A stretch of 42,697 nt of DNA, from IMG/VR virus record IMGVR_UViG_3300030106_006588, positions 26,432-69,128 of that record, one strand, 5' to 3'. The notes under the pieces are model-generated. The model did not search any database, was not told the DNA's origin, and saw nothing but the letters and a program-made list of their open reading frames with translations. Positions 6,111 through 11,218 of the stretch are shown here, piece by piece. The stretch is from a virus. Position numbers and translations under genes: made by a program. How positions within the stretch are numbered: the stretch's first letter is position 1; each line of letters starts with the position of its first letter.

Positions 6111-7942
6111 TGTGTCTCCATCCAATTTTTTCCCTCTCTTGCTTCCCCTGTCATAGGACATTTCAATTTAAAATATTCTCCAGACTTTCTAAAACAATCT
6201 ATTGCAAGTTTTTTATATAAACTTACATGTTGAGGTTTTACTAAAGCTTGTATCTCATCATGGATATGAGCTACAAAGGCATAATGGATACCCCATCTTA
6301 AATAATTTTTTTTACAATCTTCGTAAAGGATGCATGTCGCTTTTTTTACACATAGGCTTCCGGTAGATTGTAGTAATTGATTTAAGGCTGAATGTCTAGA
6401 CCTAATTTGCAAATGTCTACCATCAACACCGATTAGGTATCCTCTTTGTGTTACTTTCTCATCAACCTTGTCTTTTAATTTTTTTATTGCAGGTAAATTC
6501 TTGTAAAAAGTATCAATAGTTTCTCTCCCTATTTCCTGTCGGTCTTGTTGATTTAAACTTGTATTAAGGATTGACCCGATACGATTTGGACCACCACCAT
6601 AAAGAACTGCGTAAATTAGTGTTTTTGCTAATTCTCTTGTCCGTTTTTCTATTTTTCCTTGACCATCATATATTCCAAACAATTTGGCGTTATGAGTATG
6701 AATATCAAAGCCTTCAGTACTAACTAACTTTGCATATTCTCCACCATCAAAGTAAGCTAATTGAGCACCTAACGCCCTAAGTTCTAATCCAGATGCATCA
6801 CAGCCTACTTGTCTCCACCCCGTAGGAGCATAAAATAACGATCTACATTCTGCACCATAAGGTTGACCTACTCTAGGAATTTGAGCTACATTCGGACCCC
6901 GATGGGAACACCTTCCGCTGACACAAGCATTTGTGATTACTGACCCATGTATTCTTCCATCCTGATATCTTTGGCAATGTTTAAGCCAGGCTTCCTTACC
7001 TTCAGATATCTGTCCCAGTCTTTTATTTAATAATTGATATTTTGATAACAATGCAGCTTCAGGATATTTTTTCCCTAAATCATCTAATACATCATCATCT
7101 AGTTTCACATTACCTTTTTCAGTTTTATTAAAAGTAATAGCAGGATATTTTTCTTTTAATCTTTCAGATGTTTGTTTTCTTGATGCTGGATTAAATTTAG
7201 TTACTTTAGTTTTTAATTGTTTTCCTGTTTTTTCTGAAAATCTTTCTTCTGATATTGGGGGGAATACTTTTTGTAATTGATCATCTATCTCACTTCTTTC
7301 TTTTTTTAATTCATTTACTAAAGCAAAAGCTTTTCTTTCATCGAATGGGAAACCAAAAGCTTCCTGTCTAGCCATGACTCTAGCGAAATCATGTTCTAAA
7401 TCAAAACATCTTGGATCTAAGGTTTGAGTCTCAAAGTATTTATATAGCTCTAAAGATACTAAAGTATCTCCCTCACAGTACTTTTGCATTTCTTCAGACC
7501 ATACATCCCACCTTTCTTCATACTTATCAGCTCCCTCAAAGTTTATTTTTTTTACATTTAATCTTTCACCCCAAGCTCCCAAACTATGTTTACCTTTGTA
7601 TTTAGGAGGTATGTGAGAAAATTTAGCCTCATCTACAGGTTCTAATTCTGGTGAGAGAACCCTACTAACAATTAATGTGTCATATATTTTGCAATTTTTC
7701 TTTAATTTAAAACTTTTATAAACTTTTTTAAGAGCTCTAAAATCGAAATTAATTATATTATGGCCGACAAGTAGATCAGCTTTAGACAACATATAAAGTC
7801 CATTAACAATAGGTTCATAATCCTTTTGATCTGCACAACTAGTGACATCTCCATCATCAATATCTCTTAACACCAAAGAATGAACAGTATTTAACTCGTG
7901 GAGAAGACCATTAGTTTCACAGTCAAATACGAACCTTAACAT
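6107..7942 (-). CDS. DNA polymerase, family A, T7-like, with 3'-5' exonuclease
   Basis: The 611-residue replicative polymerase copies phage DNA with proofreading. The exonuclease domain has Exo I (D7, E9 in FDCETNGL), Exo II (GHNIINFD, D67) and Exo III (Y155-x3-D159). The polymerase domain has CVSGRCSHRGPNVAQIPR (about 340-357), motif A D382 in CDASGLELRA, motif B R436-x3-K440-x7-Y448G, and motif C H561-D562-E563. Motif B has Tyr444 at the T7 Tyr526 position. The exonuclease spacing and the HSLGAWG segment match T7 gp5. It is shorter than T7 gp5 (704 aa), and I cannot locate a thioredoxin-binding loop by eye. It overlaps the 75-aa gene upstream by TGATG coupling. Confidence 0.95.
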   Translation of the reverse strand: MLRFVFDCETNGLLHELNTVHSLVLRDIDDGDVTSCADQKDYEPIVNGLYMLSKADLLVGHNIINFDFRALKKVYKSFKLKKNCKIYDTLIVSRVLSPELEPVDEAKFSHIPPKYKGKHSLGAWGERLNVKKINFEGADKYEERWDVWSEEMQKYCEGDTLVSLELYKYFETQTLDPRCFDLEHDFARVMARQEAFGFPFDERKAFALVNELKKERSEIDDQLQKVFPPISEERFSEKTGKQLKTKVTKFNPASRKQTSERLKEKYPAITFNKTEKGNVKLDDDVLDDLGKKYPEAALLSKYQLLNKRLGQISEGKEAWLKHCQRYQDGRIHGSVITNACVSGRCSHRGPNVAQIPRVGQPYGAECRSLFYAPTGWRQVGCDASGLELRALGAQLAYFDGGEYAKLVSTEGFDIHTHNAKLFGIYDGQGKIEKRTRELAKTLIYAVLYGGGPNRIGSILNTSLNQQDRQEIGRETIDTFYKNLPAIKKLKDKVDEKVTQRGYLIGVDGRHLQIRSRHSALNQLLQSTGSLCVKKATCILYEDCKKNYLRWGIHYAFVAHIHDEIQALVKPQHVSLYKKLAIDCFRKSGEYFKLKCPMTGEAREGKNWMETH

Positions 7943-9030: not shown

Positions 9031-9265
9031 TTTTTATATCTTCTTCTTTTGACCAAAGACATAAGCTACTTATTGCTGTCTTTACAAAGTTTTTAGCTCC
9101 ATCATCTCCTTTTACTGCATCATCTAAAACAGCATGTAATGTATTTCTTAACCACTGACGATAATCTGCTCTAGGATCCATCCCAGCTGTTTTATTGGAT
9201 ATCAATAATGATTTTTCGAAGTCCTCCTTTGTCATCTCTGCATTCGTAGATGTTGTACTCTCCAT
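8933..9265 (-). CDS. hypothetical helical protein, 110 aa
   Basis: A helical protein with DFEKSLLISNKTAGMDPRAD, then RQWLRNTLHAVLDDAVKGDDG and a final WIWPYVDLLEEQ. The ATG at 9265 has GGA about 10 nt upstream. A start at 9235 would shorten the overlap with the preceding gene. It overlaps the end of the 76-aa gene by 74 nt in another frame, a larger overlap than elsewhere in the genome, so one of the two starts may be wrong. No family recognised. Confidence 0.6.
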   Translation of the reverse strand: MESTTSTNAEMTKEDFEKSLLISNKTAGMDPRADYRQWLRNTLHAVLDDAVKGDDGAKNFVKTAISSLCLWSKEEDIKINFDAWIWPYVDLLEEQKNNQNIDCSPCSVED

Positions 9266-9422
9266 CACCAAGTTCCGTATTTATAGCTGTATACAAATTA
9301 TAACTAGGAAGATTTATTTCACCATCATTGTTTACTTTTATATGTGAAACGTCAACAACAGAAATTACCCCAGAATCTACAGAGACTTTTCCTATACATT
9401 TTGGTTTGTAAATAGTAGTCAC
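9192..9422 (-). CDS. hypothetical beta-rich protein, 76 aa, GTG start
   Basis: A beta-rich protein (CIGKVSVDSGVISVVDVSHIKV...YNLYTAINTEL) beginning GTG ACT ACT (MTT), an N-terminus repeated in many genes of this phage. It is the most upstream gene of the minus-strand arm, so its promoter must lie within the structured region at 9423-9736, on the opposite strand. No family recognised. Confidence 0.6.
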   Translation of the reverse strand: MTTIYKPKCIGKVSVDSGVISVVDVSHIKVNNDGEINLPSYNLYTAINTELGDGEYNIYECRDDKGGLRKIIIDIQ

Positions 9423-9428
9423 TAGAGG

Positions 9429-9456
9429 TGGATAATATTTATATCGGTATTATTAT
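9429..9456 (+). promoter_or_regulatory. predicted sigma-70-type promoter of the structured RNA
   Basis: TGGATA (9429-9434) and TATTAT (9451-9456) are separated by 16 bp, a -35/-10 arrangement. Initiation would fall at about 9462, exactly the first base of the first predicted hairpin. The -35 match is moderate. Confidence 0.45.
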
Positions 9457-9461
9457 AGGAC

Positions 9462-9736
9462 AGGGGCGAAGAAGAACAGTGTCAGCCCTTGAGGAGAGTG
9501 TAATTTTTACTGTTTCTTACACTCAGTAAACGATCGCATTGCCAGAGAGACAGGGGTGATGCGACTCCTCTTTATTACATATTGTTAATTAGAGTTTTAC
9601 TTTTAAACTTTTCTTGCCAATATGTATTTATTCACAGCTACCTCCTAGTATTTGTGATACTGAGTTTTGTTGCATGGACTCAGGATTCTTTTAAGTTTCC
9701 CCTTTCTGCCTGAACACCAGAGAGGGGATTCTTTTT
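9462..9736 (+). ncRNA. candidate structured non-coding RNA upstream of psbA
   Basis: No ORF fills this stretch, but it is nearly contiguous helix on the plus strand. P0 is 9462-9467/9485-9490. P1 GAGGAG/CTCCTC (9491-9496/9565-9570) closes a three-way junction. P2 is 9497-9503/9517-9523. P3 TCGCATTGCC/GGTGATGCGA (9534-9543/9555-9564) has two G-U pairs. P4 TACATATTG/CAATATGTA (9576-9584/9618-9626) follows, then AGTAT/ATACT (9647-9651/9657-9661) or the overlapping CTGAGTTT/GGACTCAG (9660-9667/9676-9683). A terminator closes the transcript. The G-U pairs would be A-C mismatches on the other strand, so plus is the likely sense. It resembles no RNA family I can name. Alternatives are a long leader of the DUF4278 gene or unrelated regulatory DNA. 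Confidence 0.5.
9699..9736 (+). terminator. intrinsic terminator ending the structured RNA
   Basis: CCCCTTTCTG (9699-9708) pairs with CAGAGAGGGG (9718-9727), 10 bp with one G-U pair and a 9-nt loop, followed by ATTCTTTTT. No gene ends just upstream on this strand, so it must terminate an RNA that starts between 9423 and 9699. Confidence 0.8.
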
Positions 9737-9842
9737 GATATATAAGATATCTTAATGTTTTCTTAATATTTACTGTATCGTTACAAACGGTAGCGGTTGA
9801 TACAAAAATGCTATATTAAGTACTGTCTACAGGGTGCAACCT

Positions 9843-9995
9843 ATGAAAAAACTAATTTATCGTGGTATTGCTTATCAGAAAAAGGATCAAAGTGACTCAA
9901 AACTAGTCCTTGTACCTGGAAGAAATACACATGTCTATCGTGGTTCTGTTTATCACTACGAAACTAAAAACAAAGACCAAAAGTCATCTGTGTAA
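9843..9995 (+). CDS. DUF4278-like small protein, 50 aa
   Basis: MKKLIYRGIAYQ at the N-terminus and a second YRG (HVYRGSVYHY) about 25 residues later match DUF4278 (Pfam PF14105), a short domain found mainly in cyanobacteria and their phages. Its function is unknown; the paired YRG-x-x-Y strands suggest a small beta-sheet. The ATG follows AGGGTGCAACCT, a moderate ribosome binding site. It has its own terminator 24 nt after the stop, so it is a monocistronic gene between the RNA candidate and psbA. Confidence 0.75.
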   Translation: MKKLIYRGIAYQKKDQSDSKLVLVPGRNTHVYRGSVYHYETKNKDQKSSV

Positions 9996-10126: not shown

Positions 10127-11218
10127 ATGGCGACATCAGTTCTACAGCGTCGGAGACAATCCGAGTTGCTAGGCGGTTGGCAGTCCCTCTGTGAGTGGGT
10201 TACATCAACAGATAACAGACTATACGTTGGTTGGTTTGGTGTGTTAATGATCCCTTGCTTACTTACAGCAGCGACATGCTTCATAATTGCGTTCATAGCA
10301 GCTCCTCCTGTAGACATAGACGGTATACGTGAACCAGTAGCAGGTTCTTTCTTATATGGAAACAACATCATCTCAGGAGCAGTCGTTCCAAGCTCAAACG
10401 CAATCGGACTCCACTTCTACCCAATATGGGAAGCCCTCACAGTTGACGAGTGGCTATACAACGGAGGACCATATCAATTGGTCATCTTTCACTTCCTCAT
10501 CGGTATCTCAGCTTACATGGGACGACAGTGGGAACTTAGTTACAGATTAGGCATGCGTCCTTGGATCTGTGTTGCATACTCTGCACCAGTTTCAGCAGCT
10601 TTCGCAGTATTCCTAGTTTATCCATTTGGACAGGGATCTTTCTCTGACGGAATGCCTTTAGGTATTTCTGGTACATTCAACTTTATGTTTGTATTCCAAG
10701 CAGAACACAACATTCTTATGCACCCACTTCACATGGCTGGTGTTGCAGGTATGTTCGGTGGAGCATTATTCTCTGCTATGCATGGATCATTGGTAACATC
10801 ATCTCTTATTAGAGAAACAACTGGTCTTGAGTCACAAAACTATGGCTACAAGTTCGGTCAAGAAGAAGAAACATACAACATCGTTGCAGCTCATGGCTAC
10901 TTCGGTCGTTTGATCTTCCAGTATGCAAGTTTCAATAACAGCAGAAGTCTTCACTTCTTCCTAGCAGTATTCCCAGTAGTTTGTATTTGGCTAACTTCAA
11001 TGGGTATCTGCACAATGGCATTTAACTTAAACGGTTTCAACTTCAACCAGTCAATTGTTGACACTAACGGTAAGATCGTTCCTACATGGGCTGACGTTCT
11101 TAACAGAGCTAACTTAGGCTTTGAAGTAATGCATGAAAGAAATGCTCACAACTTCCCATTAGATCTAGCTTGTGCTGAATCTACTCAAGTTGCTCTATCA
11201 GCTCCAGCTATAGGTTGA
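10127..11218 (+). CDS. psbA: photosystem II D1 protein
   Basis: The 363-residue protein is a complete D1 reaction-centre subunit that keeps host photosynthesis running during infection by replacing photodamaged D1. It has five membrane spans. Intact ligand motifs include [13 protein letters not shown] (Tyr-Z and Asp170 region), [11 protein letters not shown] (Glu189, His190), the HMAG/His198 chlorophyll ligand region, and [14 protein letters not shown] (His332, Glu333, His337, Asp342, Ala344). The DLA before CAEST is the CtpA processing site. The residue equivalent to position 130 is Gln, as in the standard-light D1 form. The ATG at 10127 is chosen because the 17 residues upstream are not D1. 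The GC content looks higher than the surrounding genes. A terminator follows. Confidence 0.99.

Follow-up and report, generated by a model that had tools for sequence, protein, structure and literature searches.

What does the gene-free stretch upstream of psbA in this phage DNA specify? The window, i.e. the whole stretch of 42,697 nucleotides analysed here, corresponds to positions 26432-69128 in an IMG/VR virus record of 69 kb. An original prediction, made from the sequence letters, placed at 9462-9736 a structured sense-strand RNA of ~275 nt with its own promoter and terminator, and proposed a comparison of its fold with shuffled sequence and a covariance search in cyanophage genomes. Our comparison of related sequences confirms a structured RNA at 9462-9573(+), predicted to fold as listed in Table 1. 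As to its role, we lean, if only slightly, towards a stand-alone trans-acting phage sRNA gene, which would be built on a kissing-hairpin module like that of the cyanobacterial sRNA CyVA-1 in a rearranged topology.

Table 1. The RNA and its neighbours, in window coordinates
Feature	Position	Strand	Basis or remark
76-aa protein gene	9192..9422	-	divergent neighbour in the window's clade; putative protein without Pfam family
-10 box TATTAT, putative promoter of the RNA	9451..9456	+	fixed spacing in the S-EIV1-like clade
Conserved core RNA, ~112 nt	9462..9573	+	covariance model matches in ~52 contigs; covariation
Hairpin P0	9462..9490 (stem 9462-9467/9485-9490)	+	17-nt loop GAAGAAGAACAGUGUCA; 5/5 conserved pairs covary
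P0-loop half of putative kissing helix, AACAGU	9475..9480	+	complementary to 9509-9514 in 29/29 sequences
P1, closing stem of the three-way junction	9491..9570 (9491-9495/9566-9570)	+	double-sided changes in 4/5 pairs
Hairpin P2	9496..9524 (9496-9503/9517-9524)	+	loop UUUUUACUGUUUC; 8/8 pairs covary
P2-loop half of putative kissing helix, ACUGUU	9509..9514	+	complementary to the P0-loop half, 29/29 sequences
Hairpin P3	9534..9564 (9534-9543/9555-9564)	+	10/10 pairs covary
Lineage-specific filler	9574..9698	+	P4 (9576-9584/9618-9626) and smaller hairpins; unalignable or missing in relatives
Intrinsic terminator	9699..9736	+	fold; present in the nearest clade (window, L001-L005)
DUF4278 small protein gene	9843..9995	+	PF14105, 25.6 bits against a cut-off of 25.3
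psbA (D1 protein)	10127..11218	+	83-95% identity to psbA from picocyanobacteria and other cyanobacteria

The conserved core and its loop-loop contact

The core begins with hairpin P0 and continues with a three-way junction of P1, P2 and P3; all four helices agree with the original description and are part of the minimum-free-energy structure. The whole stretch reaches -85.8 kcal/mol against -63.2 for dinucleotide shuffles (z -5.3), none of the 200 shuffles being as good, and the reverse strand folds less well (z -3.6). When the two parts were folded separately, z was -1.9 for the first 112 nt and -5.96 for the downstream part (9574-9736). Since the excess stability lies mostly downstream, the core is proven by covariation rather than by energy, which taken alone would indicate the wrong half of the stretch.

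Both-sided changes were found in 28 of the 34 pairs among 29 distinct sequences. Fitting the alignment to the covariance model favours the structure, yet the difference from the controls is wide: 97.2% of the cells are paired versus 71.5% in the shuffled data, with a covariation score of 0.713 versus 0.200 and 236 double-change cells versus 57.8. The slid controls all drop to 41-50% paired.

The loops are nearly invariant across the 29 sequences (GAAGAAGAACAGYGNCA in P0 and UUUUURCUGUUUC in P2), and their consensus segments AACAGY and RCUGUU are exact complements. A P0-P2 kissing helix, which the original prediction did not contain, is supported by these sequences but not proven. Loop complementarity within a single sequence is not significant (p 0.07-0.24), so the case for the helix depends on two variants. 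One is a double change, AACAGU/ACUGUU versus AACAGC/GCUGUU, by which the last pair goes from U-A to C-G in L045 and L046, probably as one event in the tree; this compensated pair was not imposed by the search, because both loci were found through the neighbouring protein. The other is L248, found by the P0 loop alone, where AACAGC/GUUGUU maintains the pairing via G-U. Against the helix, five of the six kissing pairs show no variation, and most family members were found by patterns that demand both loops. A short form in L066 and L071 is without P1 and P3 and keeps only the two kissing hairpins, which suggests that these two hairpins are the essential part. We propose that the transcript would fold into P0 and the three-way junction and be locked in this shape by the contact between the P0 and P2 loops.

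Promoter region, filler and terminator

Most members have a -10-like or T4-late-like box immediately upstream of P0, and the promoter types vary. The TATTAT box of the window has TATAAT as its counterpart in L111, and (A/G)ATAAATA or CTAAATA, assigned to the T4 late type by eye, at the same place in L056, L100, L105 and L248. No -10 box was found upstream of P0 in L066 and L071, and promoter-like matches in the region are not above chance frequency. The -10 half of the promoter originally claimed is conserved in the S-EIV1-like clade, but a conserved -35 was not found among the compared relatives. The predicted start of transcription is at P0 or immediately upstream of it.

In the window's clade the transcript would continue through a replaceable filler to the terminator at ~9736, at a length of ~275 nt as had been predicted; only the first 112 nt of it are conserved, and the part from P4 to 9698 is specific to the lineage. 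P4 has to be dropped from the conserved RNA, as the core is joined straight to the terminator in L005 and the filler is replaced by a manA RNA in L004. This manA RNA (RF01745, 172 bits; L004 1685-1876, minus strand) is complete, lies between core and terminator and is an element distinct from the adjacent core. A hairpin loop of the window's filler, CUACCUCCUAG, is common to L001-L003 and contains CCUCCU, which is complementary to the Shine-Dalgarno sequence. The strong terminator of the original prediction is real and conserved, but it is restricted to the nearest clade; none was found after the core in L015, L017, L026, L045 and L046.

Distribution and genomic settings

A search with the 76-aa neighbour protein gave five loci (L001-L005), and their comparison indicates that the core is kept far beyond its surroundings. 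The two-loop pattern together with an alignment of the 76-aa protein added L015, L017, L026, L045 and L046, the last four of them found via the protein, as were the first five loci. Covariance model R1, trained on five sequences, recovers the untrained L015, L026, L045 and L046 with E-values of 1e-12 to 1e-21, and the patterns and covariance models R2 and R3 raise the total to ~52 IMG/VR contigs, which are fragments. This wide distribution among cyanophages was not part of the original prediction. Its carriers are S-EIV1-like psbA phages, T4-like cyanophages and a few others, mostly viruses of cyanobacteria.

One 106-kb contig (3300050343_000255) has two slightly differing copies, L075 5716-5826 and L078 5774-5884, so that the RNA is either present twice or repeated by the assembly. 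L274, from a different metagenome, has at ~6941-6995 (minus strand) the loops GAACAGU and UUUUUACUGUUUC with plausible stems; it has no model match at E 0.01 and is possibly a more distant relative.

No covariance model match to the core was found in 17 sequenced phage records. BLAST with a few cores gave no long DNA similarity in sequenced phages, the short matches lying within coding sequence, and 48 psbA loci of host genomes and ~292 cyanobacterial genomes gave no match under strict filters. Besides L248, the extra matches in a scan with the P0 loop alone are due to chance and mostly coding. A tRNA or tmRNA identity was rejected, the search having found none, and in Rfam no family passed its threshold at the core, either in the window or in 18 relatives. 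We regard this as a new RNA family, absent from Rfam and with strong covariation, in phages of major ocean photosynthesizers, where it often stands beside photosynthesis genes.

The order in the window's clade is the 76-aa gene on the opposite strand, the RNA, a second promoter-like region, DUF4278 and psbA, and a DNA polymerase of S-EIV1 type (39.5% identical) lies upstream. The RNA is thus separated from psbA by the DUF4278 gene, which has this separate promoter-like region upstream of it. The position upstream of psbA that had been emphasized holds for this clade and is a trait of it; outside it, the RNA stands before petF, an hli gene or a tRNA, lies near talC or gp6, or has only opposite-strand genes behind it. 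All members of the psbA clade keep a stretch before DUF4278 (TTTCTTAA..TTTAATGT...AAACGGTA...TATAAT-like; 9760-9815 in the window), which is probably a phage promoter. Riboswitches are also present before DUF4278 in this psbA-DUF4278 intergenic region, Glutamine-II in L004 (996-1053) and L005 (5324-5382) and glutamine in L045 (4703-4783), all on the minus strand; the Rfam scan found neither type at this place in the window. The glutamine and Glutamine-II riboswitches (RF01739 and RF01704, respectively) are separate from the core and lie downstream of the second promoter-like region.

Could the RNA be a cis-acting 5' leader, i.e. a riboswitch or attenuator that detects a signal through its fold and thereby regulates either the terminator or read-through into the next gene (DUF4278/psbA in the window, petF or hli in other phages)? 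We consider this unlikely for the family. The terminator behind the core in the window's clade would suit such a role, and phages of this clade do place riboswitches before DUF4278. Several phages have a same-strand gene next, i.e. DUF4278, petF (PF00111) in L075, an hli gene in L100 and a holin-like gene in L066/L071, and in such phages a leader role is possible. But the downstream ORFs of annotated size in L068, L073 and L111 are on the opposite strand for ~1.1, 2 and 1.8 kb, respectively, the gene converging on the RNA in L073 being NrdR-like, and no same-strand gene follows; in these three phages the RNA therefore appears to be its own unit and not simply a leader. Also against a leader are the lack of a terminator after the core outside the nearest clade, the promoter-like region that the downstream gene of the psbA clade has for itself, the unrelatedness of the downstream genes from phage to phage, and the whole manA RNA between core and terminator in L004. 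We infer instead that the RNA most likely acts in trans, as a free structured molecule whose partner would be a protein or RNA of either the host or the phage. With its fold and invariant loops defined, the binding partner is directly addressable by pull-downs and loop-swap mutants.

Among phage RNAs, paired hairpins or loop-loop contacts are also a feature of HK022 put and phi29 pRNA. In a put-like mechanism the nascent RNA would modify the RNA polymerase and thereby let it read through terminators further downstream. Given the promoter-like boxes upstream of it, our RNA would form the 5' end of the transcript in phages that are unrelated to one another, a terminator lies closely behind it in the window's clade, and its minimal form in L066/L071 has two hairpins, all of which would fit such processive antitermination. 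We nevertheless think it improbable from a comparison by description, as the genomic contexts speak against it: three phages have only opposite-strand genes within 1.1-2 kb, and the predicted promoters in front of the RNA are phage-specific in some members and of host type in others.

A transcript that primes DNA synthesis from an R-loop at a replication origin might likewise be a single-copy RNA, as this one usually is, with its own promoter and near a DNA polymerase gene, as in the S-EIV1-like phages. However, in five contigs the cumulative GC skew does not consistently reach a maximum or minimum at the RNA, and stems conserved as RNA pairs with invariant loops are unlike a primer, which makes an origin role very improbable.

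CyVA-1 and other known RNAs

Marine cyanophages also have the structured RNAs manA (RF01745), wcaG and PhotoRC-II, located close to genes for metabolism or photosynthesis (Weinberg 2010, PMC2864571). Their setting is alike, but the core is without similarity to any of them, and neither these three nor the glutamine riboswitches gave a gathering-score match at the core of the window and 15 relatives. CfrI of S-PM2 is also a non-coding phage RNA near psbA (PMC9602691); it runs antisense to the 3' end of this gene, whereas the RNA of the window is sense and upstream, and S-PM2 has no match to covariance models R2 or R3.

The best weak Rfam match on P0 is hairpin 2 of CyVA-1 (RF02965), with an E-value of 0.079 in the window and 0.25 in L081; this resemblance was likewise outside the original prediction. 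CyVA-1 is said to have been described by Weinberg in 2017. Cyanobacteria from halite express it as an sRNA (PMC7002113). When 18 phage records were searched with RF02965, the top match fell on P0 in nine, namely G000, G005, G009, G010, G309, G310, G311, G313 and G315 (in G309, G313 and G315 it was placed on the RNA by the locus offset). The best E-value is 1.5e-6 in G311, and the scores, 27.3 bits at best (G311) and 18.6 in the window, are all below the gathering cut-off of 41.4 bits. Because 6 of 14 control genomes likewise give weak matches at E<=1, it is the position of the match and not its score that counts as evidence. The match in G315, which has the short form, covers model positions 40-66 and then 9-32, i.e. 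hairpin 2 before hairpin 1, the reverse of CyVA-1.

Both RNAs have two hairpins and an outer stem, one loop being of 17 nt (GAAGGAGAACGACGUCA-like in CyVA-1, GAAGAAGAACAGCGUCA in the phages) and the other U-rich with a GUU segment, and in CyVA-1 too the loops may be partly complementary. Like CyVA-1, the phage RNA would be an sRNA gene of its own in a cyanobacterial setting. In CyVA-1 the U-rich loop precedes the purine-rich one within one closing stem, whereas the phage RNA has the P0 loop first, with P0 outside the P1 junction and P3 in its place, and its core is ~112 nt versus 77. The comparison supports a two-loop module that would be common to both RNAs but in which the hairpins have changed places.

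Eight CyVA-1 sequences were inspected by eye for the loop-loop fit. The cyanobacterial copy L295 (loop UUUUUGCUGUUUU) has loops nearly identical to those of the phages, and its AACGGC/GCUGUU would form six pairs, one of them G-U. L297 is changed on both sides (GGCG/CGCC versus AACG or AGCG/CGUU elsewhere), and L293 has no good fit. Through the proposed link, an orphan and poorly understood bacterial sRNA would gain a tertiary contact and a testable core, i.e. two near-constant loops amid changing order and scaffold.

A three-way junction with complementary loops might also suggest a structural or packaging RNA like the pRNA, in which the P0 and P2 loops would pair between molecules; the T4-late-like boxes in L056, L100, L105 and L248 would fit this. 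We find it hardly credible, as the carrier phages have unrelated replication and packaging backgrounds and the same loops are present in a cellular sRNA. To our knowledge, T4-like packaging does not require an RNA.

CyVA-1 was found in 8 of 98 cyanobacterial genomes, all of at least 3.5 Mb and often in tandem, and the marine picocyanobacteria, the likely hosts, seem to be without it, which counts against our preferred reading. The phage RNA therefore probably does not just compete with a host copy of CyVA-1, and a shared protein partner would fit better. We speculate, with more doubt than conviction, that several cyanophage lineages, unrelated to one another, each produce a rearranged CyVA-1 module as a kissing-hairpin RNA, which would bind the same cellular partner and so rewire a host process during infection, in which case CyVA-1 and the phage RNA would be one superfamily with the loop-loop helix as its functional part. 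One family of predicted membrane proteins of ~230 aa, without a Pfam match, lies near four of the eight CyVA-1 loci (L294, L295, L298 and L299).
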